From IMG/VR virus record IMGVR_UViG_3300037485_001761, positions 1-63,612 of that record: a stretch of DNA of 63,612 nt. One strand, 5' to 3'. The notes under the pieces were generated by a model, which was not told the origin of the DNA, did no database searches, and saw nothing but the letters and a program-made list of their open reading frames with translations. Below are positions 3 to 47,613 of the stretch, piece by piece; position 1 is the stretch's first letter; the number at the start of each line of letters is the position of its first letter. The DNA is from a virus. A program made the translations under genes and the position numbers.

Positions 3-728
3 GAGATTGTAAATAGCCGCATTAACGTGGATGGCGACTTAGACCCTTATTATATACTAGGCGCTAGCCAATTAATGAGCCTCCGTTCCTCGGACTCAAC
101 CGCAGTTCCTGCCGGATTTCCTAACGCTGCTGCCGTTGGAGATACCGGAGTTCTTCGTTTAGTGTGTCGCGATGTTGGAACCGGCGTTAACGGAGCCAAT
201 GTTACCGCAATGCATCAAGAGAATGCGTTGTGGTTGGCACCTGCGCAAAACTGGACTGCGTTATTTGATATTAAACAGTGGACAGAAAGAAACGACGCAG
301 TAACCATTCAGTTCTCTGAATTCGGTTTAGCTTCAACTATCACGGCTTCAGACTTGATTGACCCAGCCAAGGTTCCTGCTTACGGAAACGGTAGCACAAC
401 CGACGCCCCGTTTGTTGCAATCAAACTTTACGGAAACCAAGGCCGCATTATCTGCCGTGCTACTACAGGCGCAGCGCTGCAAACTTCTTCGGCATTTAGC
501 CTTCCTACGGGCTCTTTCCTCTGCCGGTTGGAATACAACCACGGAGCAACCAGCGGAACTCCTACGTTAGCTCTGTATGTAAATGAGCGTCCGGCTACAA
601 GTCTGAGCACTCGCATCACTGGCCCCTTACAGATTTTTGCGCGAAACTGTCATGCGGCTGGCTATGTTGCGGCAACTGCGGCACCAAGCGTTCTTGATAT
701 TGATATGATCGCTGTAGCGTTAAACTAA
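3..728 (+). CDS. C-terminal part of a virion protein, lectin-like beta sandwich (partial)
   Basis: The reading frame is open to the left edge, so the true start lies outside the window; an in-frame GTG at 27 is only the first possible internal start. The visible 240 or so residues alternate short hydrophobic strands with Gly/Ser/Thr turns. They end in a strand (DIDMIAVALN) like those that close concanavalin/laminin-G type jelly rolls. There are no transmembrane segments and no catalytic motif that I recognise. It precedes other virion genes on the same strand, so a head decoration, fibre or appendage role is inferred. Its last 113 bases overlap the convergent antirepressor gene at 616-1383. 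A major capsid protein is not excluded but the strand pattern does not suggest HK97 fold. Confidence 0.6.
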   Translation, partial: EIVNSRINVDGDLDPYYILGASQLMSLRSSDSTAVPAGFPNAAAVGDTGVLRLVCRDVGTGVNGANVTAMHQENALWLAPAQNWTALFDIKQWTERNDAVTIQFSEFGLASTITASDLIDPAKVPAYGNGSTTDAPFVAIKLYGNQGRIICRATTGAALQTSSAFSLPTGSFLCRLEYNHGATSGTPTLALYVNERPATSLSTRITGPLQIFARNCHAAGYVAATAAPSVLDIDMIAVALN

Positions 729-1383
729 TTTGTGGCTCAAAGTACTTTGATTTAAGTTCTCTGACGTGCAATTTCCCTTGCAAGCAGAGAGCTATTTGGG
801 CATTCTTTCTCTCTATTCCCAGCACTCTTCTTACATTATAATAAAACATTCCTGTTAACTTTTCACTCTCAGACAAATTAACGATGAAGTGTTTTCCTTC
901 TTCTAAGCCCAATTCTTCTGCGGCTTCCGCAACAATAATCATCGTTTTCTCTTCCATCGGAACTTCAGGCACGTACTTTGTCCCGTATTCGTTGGTAACC
1001 ATTTTTCCTCTCTTGTCCCTGTAATCGACCTCCTCACTTAGTGAGGTGGTTAAAAGCTGTCTTTCGCATTCCAGGAAATATTTTCTGACACGTCTTCCTA
1101 TTTCTGTCTCCTCAACCATCGCCAACTCTTTGGACATGTTTAATGTCAAGTAATAGTCTGATTTTGAGGTTCCAGATTTGGAACCTGAAGAACAGGACTT
1201 GGGTTGACGTATCTCAAAGTCAACGTTCTTGACGAATTCGTATCGCTCGATTTGTCTTTTCATCCAGGTGGAAAAATTAGAAGCCACCTCCAAATTCCGA
1301 TGAAGCACTGACGCCTTCACAGGAAACTTGGAACCGGTTAATTTTGTTAAAGGGAATTGATTTTGTAACGCTAAACTTGACAT
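616..1383 (-). CDS. AntA/AntB-type phage antirepressor (copy 1)
   Basis: The first 110 residues match the AntA/AntB antirepressor pattern as I know it: a SVLHRNL...W segment, an F-x-K-x-V-D-F stretch, a YYLTLNMSKELAMVE segment and the closing RRVRKYFLECERQL. Such proteins inactivate phage repressors by direct binding. The C-terminal half (from about residue 125) is unrelated to known DNA-binding domains that I can see and is shared in part with the paralogue at 9241-9879. The gene sits alone on the minus strand inside late virion genes, with its own promoter (1471-1499) and a pseudoknot leader (1401-1460), which is a moron-like arrangement. The ATG at 1383 has GAAAGGG about 6 bases upstream. 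The 3' end overlaps the convergent virion gene. Confidence 0.85.
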   Translation of the reverse strand: MSSLALQNQFPLTKLTGSKFPVKASVLHRNLEVASNFSTWMKRQIERYEFVKNVDFEIRQPKSCSSGSKSGTSKSDYYLTLNMSKELAMVEETEIGRRVRKYFLECERQLLTTSLSEEVDYRDKRGKMVTNEYGTKYVPEVPMEEKTMIIVAEAAEELGLEEGKHFIVNLSESEKLTGMFYYNVRRVLGIERKNAQIALCLQGKLHVRELKSKYFEPQISLTLQRSYQYQERLVPQLPQHSQPHDSFAQKSVRGQ

Positions 1384-1400
1384 AAAAGCCCTTTCACGAG

Positions 1401-1460
1401 AGCCTCTATTCGTTAGTTAAAGTGTTGCGTAGGGAGAGGCTTCAATTTCAACCTACGCAA
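1401..1460 (-). promoter_or_regulatory. H-type pseudoknot in antirepressor 5' leader (copy 1)
   Basis: Read on the minus strand, TTGCGTAGG (1460-1452) pairs with CCTACGCAA (1433-1425). AGCCTCT (1441-1435), which lies between those arms, pairs with AGAGGCT (1407-1401) beyond them. The interleaved order gives a classical H-type pseudoknot with 9-bp and 7-bp stems, a 10-nt first loop, 1 nt between stems and a 17-nt last loop. It begins a few bases after the predicted transcription start and ends just upstream of the Shine-Dalgarno of the antirepressor. Copy 2 at 9900-9961 has the same design with compensatory base changes. Control of translation is inferred. Confidence 0.75.
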
Positions 1461-1470
1461 AACTTCTTCC

Positions 1471-1499
1471 TTTATCCTGGCTTCTCCGAACCACGTCAA
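1471..1499 (-). promoter_or_regulatory. Sigma70-type promoter for antirepressor copy 1
   Basis: On the minus strand there is TTGACG (1499-1494), a 17-bp spacer and GATAAA (1476-1471). The same layout, with TTGACT and TATAAG, lies in front of the paralogous gene at 9972-10000. Transcription would start near 1464, directly before the pseudoknot. Confidence 0.7.
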
Positions 1500-1621
1500 T
1501 CAAACTTCACATTCGCCCACATCCTGTGCTACTCTCAAAAAGAGCTTTATTATTACACAGACGATTTAACGCATTTGTAAAGACCTTTGAACCCACTATT
1601 AAATAATCACGAGGAGTTTTT

Positions 1622-7000: not shown

Positions 7001-9244
7001 GATTTAGTTTGGTATTGTGTGTTCACGGACACTGTAGCAATCGTCCTGTCAGGCGGAGGAACTCGGACAATAAATAATTACCGCATCACTCCTTTCCTGG
7101 TTAAAGGAGCCGGGGCTACTGCTTCCTTTGATGCCGTAACTATTGGAACAGTCAGTGGGGGAAATACTTTAGATAATAGAGATATTACTATTGAAGTCTT
7201 TAGAGCGCTGAACACTGCAACCGCTGTTGATTCCTATGTTGCTGCTTTGAAAGATTTCACCATTCCTCCTGATTACGTTACAGTCGCTAAAGCAGGAATT
7301 GGAGGAGCTGGGGGTATTTTCGCCGTAGGTGATTATCTAACTTTTGAACTACTTAATCTTGATAGACAGAAACTCAGTGCGAACTTTCCTAGGCTGTCCG
7401 GGGTTTCTTGGGTGGTTACAGCCTCAGCCGCCGGAACTATTACGGTAAAATCAATTTCTACCAGAGCCATAAAGCCCGGAGGAATCAGCGAATCCGTAGT
7501 ACTAAATGCACTTAGCTATGTAGTTAATACGAAGAAAATGTTTACGGTAGGACTAACCGGGAATGTTCCATATCTTACCACGTACCTTACTGCGGGAGTC
7601 GGACTCTATGGAAGAGGGAGTTATTTGCTGGTGCGGGGCTACGATAATGACTCAGTATGCTTAGAATTAAGTGGACCAATTGATGAAATAACAGGAATTG
7701 CCACAAATAAAATTATAATCCCTATCCCCAAACCTTGGCTGACTACGGGAACCGCTACCGAAACCTATGCAATAGACTACCGAAAAATAACCGGCGTGAT
7801 GAATTCCTGCGTCATTCGTAGCTTTCCTTTGGTTTACGGAAGATACCCAATTCCCGTTCCCCGAAGGCTATCTACTAACAGTGAATTCTATGATTTAGCC
7901 TTGCCAGTGTATTCTCAAAACCAATACATTAGCGACAATACTTACGTTCAAATCACCAAAAGATTCCTTCACGCTATTCGTAAATCGACCAATGTTCCTA
8001 GTTTATCAACCACCGAAAACATCTCGGTTGGAGAATTCGTGGTCTACTCGACAGACGGAGAAAACAATTTTGTCACTGTCTCCGCCGTGGGAGGGCCTGG
8101 TTACTGGGAAATTCAAGGAATAGACAATACCACGCTCCTCCCAGTAACCGTGAAACCGGTCTACAATACCAATTACACGCTATACGGGCGAGAAGATAAC
8201 CGTGGCTCATCTTTGATTTGGACGGATACTGTTTCAGCTTCTAACGCAATCCTTGGCTCCTTGCCTACTTTCCGCAAGGATTTTTACAAAGAGATTAATG
8301 CGGAAGACGACTCAGAGATCACCGGGATGGCGGCTTTCCAGAATGCGGGAATCATCACAAAGAAGAATTCTATTTGGCGGGTTACTTTCGACGAAAGCGG
8401 GAAAATCGCAGCCCAGAGAATCCAGTCACCCACAGGAAGTGTTGGTGGAAACAACCTCCCAACTACAATTTCTTATTGTTACTTTATGAACGCATCGGGC
8501 GTCTATTTCACCGATGGCAGTACGACGGAGCAAGTGTTTAAGCTTAACCGCTTCTTCAACGAAAACGTGGATACGTCTGAACGAATGCTAAAACGATGTG
8601 CGGGTTACACGGACGCTGAGAGAAAGATTGTCCATTTAGGGGCTCCTTATTACAGTAAATACGTGGACAACACAGGTAACGTTAACGGTCAGTTCGATTA
8701 CTGCTACAACGACGGAGTCTTCGGCTGGAGCGCAAACATTGGAATACCAGCTCTTAAATTCGTTACCGCGAATCGAGAAATATTCTTCATCAACGCAGAA
8801 GGCGGAGTCAGTAAAATCCGCAATGAAGATTCCCTTTCTCGCTTTAGAGACGGAAACGGGCCGATAGATTTCAACCTTAAAACTCGATATCTGGACGCGG
8901 AAGAATTACAGAAGTATAAATTCTTACGGAATGTGCTGTTCGCTTTTGGAGATTATTCCACGTTCAATGCAGAAACATATTACACGATTGATTTTAAATC
9001 GGCGGAGTACCCTCTTGAGATTTACAATCAAACCGGGGCTTCTTTCTACAAAGGAACGGTAACCCAAGGAAACACGCAGCTCTTGAAGCAATTAAGAGAG
9101 ACGATAGCTCAGAGAGTCTTCACTATCTCTTTCCGATTAGCGGAATCAACGGTGGACACAGATTTCCCTATTTACCGGATTTCTGTGGAAGGATGGTTGG
9201 GGAACAGCCGCCTTGTAAGCCAAAAAGGCGGGACTCGGACTTAA
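4034..9244 (+). CDS. Very large tail nozzle / tail tube B-like protein
   Basis: A 1,736-residue, beta-rich protein. Its start (HGFDGSNTIPSID...DLENADLSEAGVIRKRPGH) follows the pattern of podovirus nozzle proteins (T7 gp12-like): a conserved opening strand, then an R-K-R-P element. The C-terminal 350 residues (GMAAFQNAGIITKKNSIWRV; FTDGSTTEQVFKL) look like the propeller-type blades of these proteins. At 1,736 residues it is about twice the length of T7 gp12, with extra Gly/Thr/Val-rich strands in the middle that may be appended domains. It overlaps the connector gene by 4 bases and is convergent with antirepressor copy 2, overlapping it by 4 bases. No enzyme motif is seen. Confidence 0.65.
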   Translation: MTLLANSTAIIPVSSQHGFDGSNTIPSIDEGYCIDLENADLSEAGVIRKRPGHCPYHSDFPCKMIYETRLAVGGYSLAYDKINFRSLTVRVTVLNAAGLAFLDSKFGYQTNRVADSKYAIAEILNSLDGGYAGMIEDNEILWDNTTMASTKSWKPIKILSPSIFIIPAGILPAANVSVYAHPGCCLPKLKRITNVEIVSVAPGTNNAYKVYTVEYVHSIGYYWCPVQGKMTFSSKVNGEYVIFIPAVMSSRPDFVKDALYFVAPIISRTSDADVTTAATVYPDSVEAEDRITYSTIAAGTYYVKGIGAEVIPTALESFYQLLEERDKLVTCVDGNLYKEPSTFFTTTQYSITPPSALTGQTLTKSLGVYFITYAGANTVYLVGDKVFIQRQNSDTQAITVYQMLVSAVTTAGVYVTGDAPATVSTGEVLHFTRYTNTITISGSGFPTGMIIYVDGITPYRVSYCDAGVLGFDYPISISSNSLIYVCNPWEVVEAYSTKIRLDQVSGNVTKIKPSTKYSFGAYIGDDKGIVRYDGNIPFNLSLPGPKVIGARSIPGTKGTFPIAVSANNQKIGQPVRAVFTYVFYDVNGMRIETENTVLGDGSITPNAAGDGSDYAELVEYKISYPPLVPAGYQVFVHAYVSTINTEVNVEQDFFLYRIIRIFPNAADVTRDVYSPISVIVGDIPGSALASAPVLSSIGNPILVPPRAKHLATIAGRLLAANLTSFPYVKYKPLRVFDDANRFAAYLYIKVSEDNGTTYKEYYTAPVGMVANGTSQQANTSDVNATTTVLGGTDNNYPATFPGYLVNALEYGNAEVGVGAATVAYTNTANIFKSADYTAPATFTAGTTRVVMRKGSRQVNIKGLPIKFETEVFTVSKPAADIIYNATSYWTDPTFGTDGVPEAIKGTGFAVFENVPAIGGKFLRSNLDGVYISCGTNTANPELVLSFYEDVFPKATWNASIDTKYLVLHGVGTYISVTSTQGDEVLSFDEDLVWYCVFTDTVAIVLSGGGTRTINNYRITPFLVKGAGATASFDAVTIGTVSGGNTLDNRDITIEVFRALNTATAVDSYVAALKDFTIPPDYVTVAKAGIGGAGGIFAVGDYLTFELLNLDRQKLSANFPRLSGVSWVVTASAAGTITVKSISTRAIKPGGISESVVLNALSYVVNTKKMFTVGLTGNVPYLTTYLTAGVGLYGRGSYLLVRGYDNDSVCLELSGPIDEITGIATNKIIIPIPKPWLTTGTATETYAIDYRKITGVMNSCVIRSFPLVYGRYPIPVPRRLSTNSEFYDLALPVYSQNQYISDNTYVQITKRFLHAIRKSTNVPSLSTTENISVGEFVVYSTDGENNFVTVSAVGGPGYWEIQGIDNTTLLPVTVKPVYNTNYTLYGREDNRGSSLIWTDTVSASNAILGSLPTFRKDFYKEINAEDDSEITGMAAFQNAGIITKKNSIWRVTFDESGKIAAQRIQSPTGSVGGNNLPTTISYCYFMNASGVYFTDGSTTEQVFKLNRFFNENVDTSERMLKRCAGYTDAERKIVHLGAPYYSKYVDNTGNVNGQFDYCYNDGVFGWSANIGIPALKFVTANREIFFINAEGGVSKIRNEDSLSRFRDGNGPIDFNLKTRYLDAEELQKYKFLRNVLFAFGDYSTFNAETYYTIDFKSAEYPLEIYNQTGASFYKGTVTQGNTQLLKQLRETIAQRVFTISFRLAESTVDTDFPIYRISVEGWLGNSRLVSQKGGTRT

Positions 9245-9879
9245 AAGAAACAGGTATACTCGGATATAAGTCCAACATCTTTCGAGGACAGTTCAGGATT
9301 CTCTATCAGCTTTATCAGTTTCTTCCGAGTAACTTTCTTTCCTCCGACATTTGCATCCAATAATTCAATCATACAGGTCAACAACTGCTCTCTGTTTAAT
9401 TCACTGGCTAGACTATCTCCAGTTTCAATCCCTAATATTTCGGCAGCGGACGCGACAACTTTAATCTTCTTTGCTTCGGGCAGAACTTTAGGTTTATACT
9501 TTGTCCCGTACTCGTCAGTGATCATCTTCCCGGTTGGCTTTGAACTGAGCAACTGTCTTTCGCATTCCAGGAAATATTTTCTGACTCGTCTCCCGACCCA
9601 CGTTTTCTCGACCATCGCTAACTCTTTAGCCCTGTTCAAGGTCAAATAAACTTGTGACTTGGCGGTCAGGAATTCCTGACCTGAAGAACAAGAATTCTTT
9701 TGACGTATCTCAAAGTCCTTGTTCTTCTCAAATCCGTATTCTTCAATCCTGACTTTCAGCCAGTCTGTGAACTTCCACCCGGATTCCAAATTTCGATGAA
9801 GCACTGACGCCTTCACAGGAAACTTGGAACCGGTTAATTTTGTTAAAGGGAATTGATTCTGTATCGTTAAACTTGACAT
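9241..9879 (-). CDS. AntA/AntB-type phage antirepressor (copy 2)
   Basis: Paralogue of the gene at 616-1383. The first 120 residues are nearly the same apart from substitutions (MSSL.IQNQFPLTKLTG, then SVLHRNLE, then RRVRKYFLECERQLL), and the linker GKM.T.EYGTKY.P is shared. The C-terminal 90 residues are different (ending VGLISEYTCFF), so this part has been exchanged or has diverged fast, as in many mosaic antirepressors. It has its own promoter (9972-10000) and pseudoknot leader (9900-9961). AGAGGG lies about 8 bases before the ATG. The stop overlaps the convergent nozzle gene. It probably binds a different repressor from copy 1; that is inference. Confidence 0.85.
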   Translation of the reverse strand: MSSLTIQNQFPLTKLTGSKFPVKASVLHRNLESGWKFTDWLKVRIEEYGFEKNKDFEIRQKNSCSSGQEFLTAKSQVYLTLNRAKELAMVEKTWVGRRVRKYFLECERQLLSSKPTGKMITDEYGTKYKPKVLPEAKKIKVVASAAEILGIETGDSLASELNREQLLTCMIELLDANVGGKKVTRKKLIKLIENPELSSKDVGLISEYTCFF

Positions 9880-9899
9880 AAATGGGCCCTCTGTTGTAT

Positions 9900-9961
9900 G
9901 AGCCCTTCAGTAGTGTTACTATAGTTTTGCGTGGGGAAGGGCTCTAATCTGGCCCACGCAA
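9900..9961 (-). promoter_or_regulatory. H-type pseudoknot in antirepressor 5' leader (copy 2)
   Basis: On the minus strand TTGCGTGGG (9961-9953) pairs with CCCACGCAA (9935-9927), extendable to 11 bp with two flanking T-A pairs. GAGCCCTTC (9944-9936) pairs with GAAGGGCTC (9908-9900). The order is interleaved, with an 8-nt first loop, no bases between the stems and an 18-nt last loop. Compared with copy 1, an A-U pair in stem 1 is replaced by G-C and several positions of stem 2 change on both sides while pairing is kept. This supports a real RNA fold. It sits between the promoter and the ribosome binding site. Confidence 0.8.
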
Positions 9962-9971
9962 AACTTCTTGC

Positions 9972-10000
9972 CTTATACTGGCTTTACTAAGCCAAGTCAA
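9972..10000 (-). promoter_or_regulatory. Sigma70-type promoter for antirepressor copy 2
   Basis: On the minus strand there is TTGACT (10000-9995), a 17-bp spacer and TATAAG (9977-9972). This is a close match to the sigma70 consensus. The expected start near 9965 puts the pseudoknot at the extreme 5' end of the mRNA. Confidence 0.8.
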
Positions 10001-10028
10001 TTATCCTCTTTATACGGAGGACGCATCA

Positions 10029-10653: not shown

Positions 10654-13600
10654 CTGGATGACGAGAAATACTCAATCGCAATTCAAAAAACCGACAACTG
10701 AAACCGGTCTGACACCGAAACAGCAAGATATGGCGGGCAGCATGTACCCGGGGGCGTTCAAGCCCAGTGAACCCGTGCCCCAAGACGAAACAGTCAACGC
10801 CACTGAAATGCGTCAGGAAAAAGCCCAAACGCAAATTCAGAAACCGGAGAAACAAGAAGCCAAGCGCAAAGAGATGGAGCAATCGGGAATCGGCATGGCG
10901 GTGGCCGAGGCTTCCTCCAAAATCGGCATCTTCAAATACAAACTCCAAGAAGAGGTAAACAACTTTCTCACGCAAGGCCCTACGGAAACCGGATTGCAAT
11001 CTTACGTAGGAACCGATGGACTTGTTCACACCGGAACAGTCAACGCCACTGAAATGCGTCAGGAAAAAGCCCAAACGCAAATTCAGAAACCGGAGAAACA
11101 AGAAGCCAAGCGCAAAGAGATGGAGCAATCGGGAATCGACATGGCGGTGGCCGAGGCTTCCCCCAAAATCGGCATCTTCAAATACAAACTCCAAGAAGAG
11201 GTAAACAACTTTCTCACGCAAGGCCCTACGGAAACCGGATTGCAGTCTTACGTAGGAACCGATGGACTTGTTCACACCGGAACAAGTCAAGACGCGCTAA
11301 ATCCCGCGGTCGCTGAAAAGCAAGGCGCTCAACAGGGAATCCTCAACACGATGCGCCCGTTCCTCGAGCAAACCGGAGCCGGTGGATTTAAGGCAAAACA
11401 GTTCAAAGATGTTGCCAGTGGCTTGTTCGCGAATCCCACGGCTGACACGAGTCGGTTGATTCAAATGGTCGACACCCTCGACATGCTCGAGGATCAGGGA
11501 ATGTCCCAAACCACCGAAGCCCAGGCATTACGTGCCCAACTCGAAGAGATGGACACGTTCGGCATTGCTTCCGATTTGCGGAATACCAAGAAAACCTATG
11601 AACAACTTATGGGCGCTGGAAGACAAGATCCTACTAAATGGTATGGAGAAACTGGCAAAGAAGGAAACACGGCGTTAGAGTTAGCGACTCTTTCCTCAAC
11701 CAATATTCAAGATGAACTTGAAAAAGCTATGGTTTCGGCCTCTGGATTGTTCAGCGGTGAAGTGGAAAGCTCGTTGAAGAAAACCTTCGATACGCAATCC
11801 GCACAAGCAGAACGAGCCAGTAAATGGAGTCAGGAAGCCAACACCCAATTATCGAGTGCCTTAGACACGGTATTGAAGGAAGAACGCGGAGAATTTGGCA
11901 CGGCGAAAGACAACCTGTACAAAGTCCTCGACCAAGTCAAAGGCCCCCTTAATGAAATTATGAAGAAATACCCAGAAGCTACTTTTTGGGGCGATATGAT
12001 GCAGGATACTGGCTCCTTCTACGAATTCATTACCACGGCACTCAATGACCCAGAATCCGGGATTGCCGCAGAAGACAGAGCCATGTTGCGAAAATACCTG
12101 GGTGACGCTGCCGGGGAACAAGGGCAATTCTCCATGTGGTTGGACGAATTGTCGTCAACCGGAGGCTTTACCGTTGTTCAAGAAGACGCTAACGGCGTAC
12201 CTAAAGAAACTACTCTCCGACCTGACGGAGCGATGAAGAATCAGATTACTCGATTATTATCCGACCCGAACGTCGATAAACAGTGGGCTTTGGGCCAGGT
12301 AAAAGAGATGATGTACAATGTGAAGATTGACCCTTCAACTACGGTAAGAAGTTTCTTCGGAGACTTGTTAAGTGGAGTGAAGGATTTATCGGATACTAAA
12401 GCCACGCAACAAGAGTTCACCACATCCCTAGAAAAGACGATGGCCGGGTTTCTTGGAACCAAGACAGAAGATATTTTCAAAAGAGGCATGACAGAGTTGC
12501 TTAAGGATTCGGGAATTCCTGGCCTGGATAAAATGACGACCGCAGCGCTAAAGCTAGAATTTGATAAGTTACCCCCTAACGTTAAAGCGGAATTGACCAC
12601 TCAAATACAAAAAGAGCTTCAATCCGTCATGGGGGGACAGGAAATTGCTTACACTAAAGCCATGCAAGCTGGGACAAAAGATGCTAAGGAAGCGGTTGGC
12701 ACTAAATTAAAAGAAGCACAATCTGAATTGTCAAGATTAAATACACTGAAAGCCAAGAACACCAATCTCGTGAATGAGGCATTTGGTAAACTGTGGACAA
12801 ATCTCCAGACACAAAGGACTGCCGTTAACGCGGCTACCCCTAAGCTACGAACAGAAATAGACAATTCTCCTTGGTTTCAGCAAATGATTTCTTATGGATT
12901 AGCGAAGCCCGAAGACGCGGCTTCCATAGCTAACGCCATGTCTATGGAAAAGCTGCTCCCGGTACTTAAACAACTTAACCCGGCTATCGGAGCTGGGTTG
13001 CCTAACTTAGCGTTGTACTTCGATGTAGCCAATGGTGTGGTCGATTTAAAAGGAATTGCTAAATACTACGACGCAGTAGAAAAAGTAGCCGGAGAAATCT
13101 TAGGGAACCCTGGTAAATACTCTGAAACTTTCGCTGATATGTACCGACAAACAGCGGAAGGGAAGCAATTACTAGAACAACAAGTATCTAGGGACAAGCA
13201 AATCAGCGAAGCAATAAACACTCTCGCCGGAACCGTTACGAATTTAAATGCGATGAATTCCACCGTTGACGGGTTTGTCTCTCAACTTGGAAAGAAGTTG
13301 CCTATTGTGATGGATGCGGGACAAGTGGTAAATACTTTACTGGGAGCCGCTCAAGGAGACGCTCTTACCGGTGAAAATCTAGCCCCGACTCTCGAAGGAA
13401 TGGGAGTGGAGCAAGATAAAGATGGAAACTTCTTCCTGAACTTTGGAGGAAAGTATATTCCTATTGACGCAGACACTCTCAACAAAATCGTAGAAGCTAA
13501 GAACGCCAATGTTAAGTCTGCCGTAGCCGAAAGTGACTTGTTAAAAGGTGTGACCACTCAAGGGTTAGGCGCAAGCAATCTCCCTGGGAATATGACGATT

Positions 13601-47048: not shown

Positions 47049-47075
47049 TTGGATTTAGAACGAGTGTTCTATAAT
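47049..47075 (+). promoter_or_regulatory. Promoter-like site with LexA-type operator
   Basis: A perfect TATAAT (47070-47075) overlaps the palindrome TAGAAC-GAGT-GTTCTA (47056-47071). Its core GAAC-GAGT-GTTC fits the Gram-positive LexA consensus GAAC-RNRY-GTTC. A possible -35 TTGGAT is only 15 bp upstream, shorter than ideal. The transcript would run into the tandem repeats. Confidence 0.5.
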
Positions 47076-47090
47076 AACGTGATGGCGTAA
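47071..47090 (+). repeat. Left arm of perfect 20-bp inverted repeat
   Basis: ATAATAACGTGATGGCGTAA here equals the reverse complement of 47594-47613. The two arms bound 503 bp that contain all four tandem repeat families. The right arm overlaps the stop codon of the gene at 47610. Both arms carry a -10-like TATAAT/GATAAT directed inward. Confidence 0.9.
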
Positions 47091-47222
47091 CAGTGACTTT
47101 ATTAAGGAATACAGTATTGGCTTTGGAGAGCCATAGGCTAGATAAGTGTTGGACTGACTATAAGGATAAAGGTATTGGCGCAGACCCCCGATGTGGGAAG
47201 GGGTGGCGGGCGGTTCGGTATC

Positions 47223-47369
47223 CGACAAACGCGTGAAAAACTGCCTCTTTTTCCTTTTTCCTGTGAAATCGACAAACGCGTGAAAAACTGCCTCTTTTTC
47301 CTTTTTCCTGTGAAATCGGCAGAGATCGACGTGAAAAACTGCCTCTTTTTACTTTTTCCTGTGAAATCG
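47223..47369 (+). repeat. Tandem repeat, 47-53 bp unit, 3 copies
   Basis: Units start at 47223, 47270 and 47317 and share a GTGAAAAACTGCCTC core, a polypyrimidine tract and a CTGTGAAATCG end. The first two are nearly identical; the third has a changed start and a one-base change in the tract. Confidence 0.9.
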
Positions 47370-47443
47370 GGGTTAGTTTAGCAGAGGGTTAGTTTAGCAG
47401 AGGGTTAGTTTAGCAGAGGGTTAGTTTAGCAGAGGGTTAGTTT
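47370..47443 (+). repeat. Tandem repeat, 16-bp unit, 4.6 copies
   Basis: Unit GGGTTAGTTTAGCAGA at 47370, 47386, 47402 and 47418, identical in all, followed by a partial copy GGGTTAGTTT. No pairing within the unit is evident. Confidence 0.95.
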
Positions 47444-47460
47444 CCCTGTAATATCACTGT

Positions 47461-47503
47461 ACCTACCCTACCCCCTACCCCCTACCCCCTACCCCCTACC
47501 CTC
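47461..47503 (+). repeat. Heptanucleotide repeat (C-rich)
   Basis: About five units of CTACCCC with flanking variants. The G-rich complement, GGGGTAG-like, could form four-stranded structures. Confidence 0.9.
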
Positions 47504-47514
47504 TGTCCCACAGA

Positions 47515-47578
47515 CACGCTTGGAACCGATCACGCTTGGAACCGATCACGCTTGGAACCGATCACGCTTGGAACCGCC
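47515..47578 (+). repeat. Iteron-like repeat, 16-bp unit, 4 copies
   Basis: Unit CACGCTTGGAACCGAT at 47515, 47531, 47547 and 47563 (the last ends CC). The 13-mer CACGCTTGGAACC also occurs inverted at 46788-46800, and with one mismatch at 46678-46690. Six copies in two orientations within 900 bp point to a protein-binding site array. Confidence 0.9.
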
Positions 47579-47593
47579 GCATTGTGACGCTGT

Positions 47594-47613
47594 TTACGCC
47601 ATCACGTTATTAT
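47594..47613 (-). repeat. Right arm of perfect 20-bp inverted repeat
   Basis: Reverse complement of 47071-47090. It covers the last codons' stop of the leftward gene at 47610-48242. Similarity continues imperfectly inward (ACAGCGTCAC against CAGTGAC). Confidence 0.9.

Follow-up and report, generated by a model that had tools for sequence, protein, structure and literature searches.

Pseudoknot leaders of two phage antirepressor genes: candidates for a translation switch

Pseudoknots and a competing hairpin in two antirepressor leaders

Here, we analysed two short leaders that precede two AntA antirepressor genes of a phage. In both leaders, two interleaved stems, designated S1 and S2, form a predicted pseudoknot, while the 3' strand of S2 can alternatively pair with the Shine-Dalgarno region in a hairpin designated P3. 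We propose that the leaders act as cis-acting bistable translation switches with the pseudoknot as the on state and P3 as the off state; we infer the switching, its sign and its trigger, and put the probability of this reading at slightly below one half (about 0.48). The competition of S2 with a Shine-Dalgarno hairpin for one strand offers a concrete mechanism, which was absent from the preliminary description of this DNA. More tentatively, the leaders may represent a novel type of small leader RNA, combining a 5'-terminal pseudoknot, competition of S2 with a Shine-Dalgarno hairpin, location on mobile antirepressor cassettes and a self-specific switch in each copy. Owing to its small size, the leader lends itself to full mutational testing.

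The antirepressor genes

The analysed window covers an entire IMG/VR record (63,612 bases), which is classed as 'linear' and may be a fragment of a phage genome. Matches to the AntA domain were obtained for two genes of the record only, both scoring above the Pfam cut-off of 27 bits:

616-1383, minus strand: antirepressor 1, AntA domain, 255 aa (Pfam PF08346, E 1.5e-19, 70.8 bits; PHROG anti-repressor Ant)
9241-9879, minus strand: antirepressor 2, AntA domain, 212 aa (Pfam PF08346, E 2.2e-15, 57.4 bits; PHROG anti-repressor)

The AntA match of the first gene (E 1.5e-19) bears out its earlier assignment as an antirepressor. Close relatives of the two proteins were found neither in viral nor in genome contigs when single-protein and two-copy queries were employed. 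Compared with each other at the DNA level, the two genes share a 98-bp block spanning codons 1-32 (1289-1386 versus 9785-9882) with about 95-96% identity (91/96 within the codons), while identity elsewhere amounts to 78% (31/40) in the promoter block, 62% in codons 33-59 and 72% in codons 60-112. Local gene conversion or a constraint at the nucleotide level would explain the high identity of codons 1-32 relative to their flanks.

Architecture of the leaders

The leader of antirepressor 1 (copy 1) comprises the following elements:

1471-1499, minus strand: putative sigma-70-like promoter, TTGACG-17-GATAAA (read from the sequence and aligned with copy 2)
1452-1460, minus strand: 5' strand of S1, TTGCGTAGG (read from the sequence, stem scan)
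1435-1441, minus strand: 5' strand of S2, AGCCTCT, within the S1 loop (sequence, stem scan)
1425-1433, minus strand: 3' strand of S1, CCTACGCAA (sequence, stem scan)
1401-1407, minus strand: 3' strand of S2, AGAGGCT, common to S2 and hairpin P3 (sequence, stem scan, folding)

Transcription would start near 1464; a consensus promoter scan did not detect the copy 1 promoter. S1 (9 bp, 1460-1452/1433-1425) and S2 (7 bp, 1441-1435/1407-1401) are interleaved, with loops L1, L2 and L3 of 10, 1 and 17 nt, and S1 has an extension AGU/ACU set off by one mismatch. The Shine-Dalgarno sequence AAGGG (1393-1389) and the ATG (1383-1381) follow 3' of the stems. The preliminary description had located interleaved stems of 9 and 7 bp within 1401-1460, between promoter and ribosome binding site, and was accurate in this regard.

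The corresponding elements of antirepressor 2 (copy 2) are:

9972-10000, minus strand: putative sigma-70-like promoter, TTGACT-17-TATAAG (read from the sequence)
9953-9963, minus strand: 5' strand of S1, TTTTGCGTGGG (sequence, stem scan)
9936-9944, minus strand: 5' strand of S2, GAGCCCTTC (sequence, stem scan)
9925-9935, minus strand: 3' strand of S1, CCCACGCAAAA (sequence, stem scan)
9900-9908, minus strand: 3' strand of S2, GAAGGGCTC, common to S2 and P3 (sequence, stem scan, folding)

The layout is the same as in copy 1, with an S1 of 11 bp (extendable to 13 pairs), an S2 of 9 bp, loops of 8 (L1), 0 (L2) and 16 nt (L3) and a Shine-Dalgarno sequence GAGGG at 9891-9887. Both leaders display the features of an H-type pseudoknot, i.e. 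two interleaved stems and loop lengths able to span the grooves, and in both the stems begin within a few nt of the putative transcription start. The 3' strand of S2 ends 17-20 nt 5' of the AUG in both copies and leaves the Shine-Dalgarno sequence outside the pseudoknot. A leader peptide was considered and rejected: a short ORF is possible in each copy as judged by eye, but starts and frames differ. The promoter spacer of copy 2 contains a palindrome, TGGCTTAGTAAAGCCA (9994-9979), with an imperfect counterpart, TGGTTCGGAGAAGCCA, in copy 1 (1493-1478), a possible operator.

Evidence for selection on both stems

An exact-complement scan of the whole window (S1 of at least 9 and S2 of at least 7 bp) returned only the two antirepressor leaders, at a chance expectation of 0.025 matches per strand for first-order Markov sequence; the copy 2 locus also scores on the reverse strand. 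The aligned leaders are 66% identical and their loop sequences differ, while all 16 stem pairs of copy 1 are still paired in copy 2 and none is broken. Three pairs changed on both sides, namely A:U to G:C in S1 as well as U:A to C:G and C:G to U:A in S2. Under independent substitution at 15-35% divergence, keeping 16/16 pairs with at least three double changes has a probability of approximately 1e-6. Since all pairs are kept, three of them by two-sided change, this single comparison of two paralogues from one record, which is not a phylogeny, provides good evidence that the pairing in both stems is under selection. It thereby substantiates the earlier claim that compensatory change between the copies points to a selected RNA structure.

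The same changes bear on the question whether the interleaved inverted repeats act at the DNA level, as operator or recombination sites. The palindrome in the copy 2 promoter spacer makes a nearby DNA operator plausible, but the S2 arms changed complementarily and a recognition sequence was not kept; in addition, the repeats sit between promoter and ribosome binding site. We consider a DNA-level element highly improbable. Just as improbable appears a ligand-binding riboswitch with a pseudoknot aptamer. H-type pseudoknots located beside a Shine-Dalgarno sequence are found in preQ1 and SAM-II riboswitches and offer a model for such a reading, but the curated Rfam riboswitch families gave no match in the window leaders, and the loops, in which the binding pocket would be expected, are poorly conserved. 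Ligand sensing, as put forward in the preliminary description, is unsupported in view of the differing loops and the lack of an Rfam riboswitch match. Weak matches of the leaders to mir-242 were discarded as chance matches to a hairpin.

Beyond the two copies, a homologue of the window leader was not found by protein, pattern or nucleotide searches. The nucleotide searches yielded no leader-like sequence in phages and plasmids, a stricter DNA pattern of the leader gave 0 matches, and other DNA-pattern matches, among the matches listed, were attributed to chance. Two related phage records, G001 and G002 (terminase 62% identical), did not contain a pseudoknot in the same scan with S1 of at least 9 and S2 of at least 7 bp.

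A predicted competing hairpin with the Shine-Dalgarno region

Minimum-energy folding, a method which is blind to pseudoknots, placed the S2 3' strand of both copies in a hairpin with the Shine-Dalgarno region:

1382-1409, minus strand: P3 of copy 1, pairing 1409-1399 with 1392-1382 (folding, -11.5 kcal/mol)
9884-9905, minus strand: P3 of copy 2, pairing GGGCUC (9905-9900) with GGGCCC (9889-9884) (folding, -10.4 kcal/mol)

P3 hides most of the Shine-Dalgarno sequence AAGGG plus the AU of the start codon in copy 1 and most of GAGGG (9891-9887) in copy 2. Pseudoknot and P3 exclude each other because both need the 3' strand of S2. When this strand was paired with the 41 other gene starts of the phage, its own start was equalled or beaten by 0/41 in copy 1 and 3/41 in copy 2, and 1% (copy 1) and 3% (copy 2) of spacer shuffles paired as well as P3. 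In the alignment column 1405/9905, which holds an A in copy 1 and a G in copy 2, the partner in S2 and the partner in P3 both changed from U to C, so that both alternatives were kept. The significance of P3 is nevertheless modest and follows in part from the near-palindromic Shine-Dalgarno regions; the copy 2 hairpin has only six contiguous pairs, and one P3 pair of copy 1 corresponds to A-A in copy 2. P3 as an intrinsic terminator (attenuation) gained no support from a terminator scan.

Following our switch proposal, the first approximately 80 nt of each antirepressor mRNA would constitute the regulatory element. S1 would fold first and hold the 5' strand of S2 in its loop; the emerging 3' strand of S2 would then close the pseudoknot, leave the Shine-Dalgarno sequence exposed and keep translation on. 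Since the last strand of the pseudoknot is transcribed ahead of the Shine-Dalgarno sequence, the pseudoknot should have the first chance to fold on the nascent RNA. If S2 were unformed or opened, its 3' strand would pair with the Shine-Dalgarno region in P3 and translation would be off. Folding kinetics, a bound protein or an antisense RNA are candidate triggers; judging by the gene order, antisense RNA could be provided by plus-strand transcription of the late operon crossing the cassettes. The proposal is supported by the pseudoknot with its compensatory pairs in two copies and by rough energies of the two forms, which are within range of each other: hand estimates with a Dirks-Pierce-type penalty gave -19 kcal/mol for the pseudoknot versus -23 kcal/mol for S1 plus P3 in copy 1, and -33 versus -26 kcal/mol in copy 2. 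Against it stands the ability of the S1 loop to pair with the start region (-12.6 kcal/mol in copy 1 and -11.1 kcal/mol in copy 2, with 0/41 and 1/41 other starts as good). This pairing leaves room for a third form, which would be repressed, and for an opposite sign of the loop.

The pseudoknot might also be a static structure, which shields the 5' end of the mRNA or binds a protein, e.g. the antirepressor in an autogenous manner, with P3 being incidental. The start of the pseudoknot only a few nt from the putative transcription start fits such a role, and autogenous pseudoknot operators occur in phages, as exemplified by gene 32 of T4. We still regard this explanation as unlikely: the loops, which are the usual protein contacts, differ between the copies, and the sharing of a strand by S2 and P3 in both copies is left unaccounted for.

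Relation to known RNA control of antirepressors

C4, sar and IsrK are known examples of antirepressor control by RNA, exerted via the gene's own leader or by antisense RNA, whereas the pseudoknot shape of the leader is new. In the Gifsy-1 prophage system IsrK/orf45-anrP, the IsrK RNA shifts the antirepressor mRNA from an inactive to an active structure (PMC4825925), which sets a precedent for a switch. There, the inactive fold is released by RNA pairing, and the system employs a separate sRNA and translational coupling to an upstream ORF; the text of PMC4825925 does not use the word 'pseudoknot'. In P22, pairing of the sar RNA controls initiation on the ant mRNA (PMC12197685), but sar is a separate antisense RNA, while the element in the window is a leader fold. 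In literature combining antirepressor, pseudoknot and phage, titles and opening lines mentioned no such leader.

C4 (RF01695), which is known from P1/P7 and prophages, derives from the antirepressor leader and pairs through a loop near the Shine-Dalgarno sequence, with a specificity that varies by system (PMC5320573, PMC12197685). The window leaders share the position 5' of the antirepressor gene and, judging by the promoter position, probably a common transcript with it. C4 is an RNA of approximately 77 nt with three stems, which is processed by RNase P and blocks its site in trans, as opposed to one hairpin and a cis pseudoknot in the window. The antirepressor start region is the target of two complementary loop elements of C4, a' and b', the latter of which overlaps the Shine-Dalgarno sequence; in the window leaders, one loop element pairs 5' of the Shine-Dalgarno sequence (S2), and the start region also offers a pairing, albeit a weaker one. 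A second family, sRNA-Xcc1 (RF02221), lies directly 5' of AntA genes (L144, L254) and shows covarying pairing beside the Shine-Dalgarno sequence, but adopts a larger fold with stems P1, P2 and P3 of its own and a conserved AUACAAUACCC core, which is absent from the window. Covariance models of C4 and sRNA-Xcc1 gave no match in either window leader at E<=10, while the C4 model scored 73.4 bits for locus L202 as a positive control. The window leader is somewhat similar to C4 and Xcc1 in its proposed working, but a member of neither Rfam family.

A wider query yielded at least 160 distant AntA loci (best 80 or fewer per search), which among the matches listed have at most 52% identity over the domain. 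The compact pseudoknot leader of the window was present in 0/159 scanned distant loci, among the matches listed. At relaxed thresholds (S1 of at least 8 and S2 of at least 6 bp), five of the 159 loci passed versus 0.4 expected, all five within Xcc1-like leaders. Leaders of larger size (C4, sRNA-Xcc1) are found in many distant loci; their loops pair beside the same site. L202 matches C4 and also contains the a1b1 target of C4. L144 matches sRNA-Xcc1 above the gathering score with 73.7 bits, as does L177, but there the match lies at 2682-2772, well downstream of the AntA match. The Bartonella leader L254 reached 50.2 bits (E 2e-8), just under the cut-off of 53. The Xcc1 and Xcc1-like leaders are located as follows:

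1336-1420 of L144: Xcc1 leader
about 1294-1446 of L228, L232, L235, L254, L290, L293, L145, L182 and other Bartonella-type loci: Xcc1-like AntA leaders

All 17 Bartonella-type leaders examined have a loop with 7/7 complementarity to the bases running into the Shine-Dalgarno sequence, in nine distinct sequence pairs, while cross-pairing of non-matching leaders gave an average of 4.6/7. Because C4-like and Xcc1-like leaders with complementary loops occur in the homologues, these comparisons indicate that RNA control at the antirepressor start site is common among AntA genes. A much smaller, structurally unrelated RNA control on antirepressor cassettes, in a phage lacking a recognised integrase, would suggest that such control had more than one origin and travels with the gene.

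These relatives provide the main rival to the switch, an antisense repression of opposite sign as in C4: the S1 hairpin would act in cis, or in trans after processing, and pairing of its loop with the leader just 5' of or over the Shine-Dalgarno sequence would repress translation. The occurrence of C4 and sRNA-Xcc1 directly 5' of AntA genes (L202, L144) and the perfect loop complementarity of all 17 leaders from Bartonella prophages are in line with this reading. So are the pairing of the S1 loop with the start region and the diverged specificity of S2, for which cross-copy pairing reached -6.6 and -5.8 kcal/mol compared to -10.3 and -15.8 kcal/mol for the own strands. However, the 3' strand of S2 stops short of the Shine-Dalgarno sequence, at a distance of 17-20 nt from the AUG, S1 is a single hairpin rather than a multi-stem C4 fold, and both family models failed to match even at the permissive E-value. 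Overall, we judge a C4-like mode of action rather unlikely.

Two further observations concern the homologous leaders. sRNA-Xcc1 has been described as an sRNA encoded by integrons, and here it makes up the leader of AntA genes; the literature searched did not name it together with antirepressors. The Xcc1-like loop and the segment that follows it covary with two sites, located on and 5' of the antirepressor Shine-Dalgarno sequence, as in C4. Approximately 90 nt before its AntA match, L198 carries a C4-like leader without an Rfam match at the gathering score, the loop of which (CGACTACTCAT) pairs with ATGAGTGGTCG, extending into the Shine-Dalgarno sequence GGAG.

Genomic setting of the cassettes

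Both antirepressors are part of cassettes, which were delimited by comparison with the related records:

729-1621, minus strand: cassette 1 with antirepressor 1 (flanking homologues 11 bp apart in G001 and G002)
9245-10028, minus strand: cassette 2 with antirepressor 2 (flanking homologues overlapping by 4 bp in G001)

AntA matches are absent from G001 and G002. Since the flanking genes are 11 bp apart or overlap by 4 bp in G001, both antirepressors, together with promoter and leader, are exact, moron-like insertions at junctions of late genes, oriented opposite to these. The 3' end of antirepressor 1 extends into the convergent gene at 27-728.

A tyrosine integrase, a serine recombinase or an HTH_3 repressor was not found in the record, which may be incomplete; the search controls matched. 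A choice between lysis and lysogeny is consequently unproven for this phage, and the role in lytic/lysogenic control ascribed to the leader in the preliminary description is not supported. Repressors of other phages could be the targets of the antirepressors.

Two repetitive stretches were observed elsewhere in the record. A near-perfect tandem duplication of 246 bp (98%) is located at 10786-11277, inside a structural gene of 1254 aa. The stretch 47071-47613 contains several tandem repeat arrays with units of 47, 16 and 16 nt, has a perfect inverted repeat of 20 bp at its borders and is possibly a replication origin.
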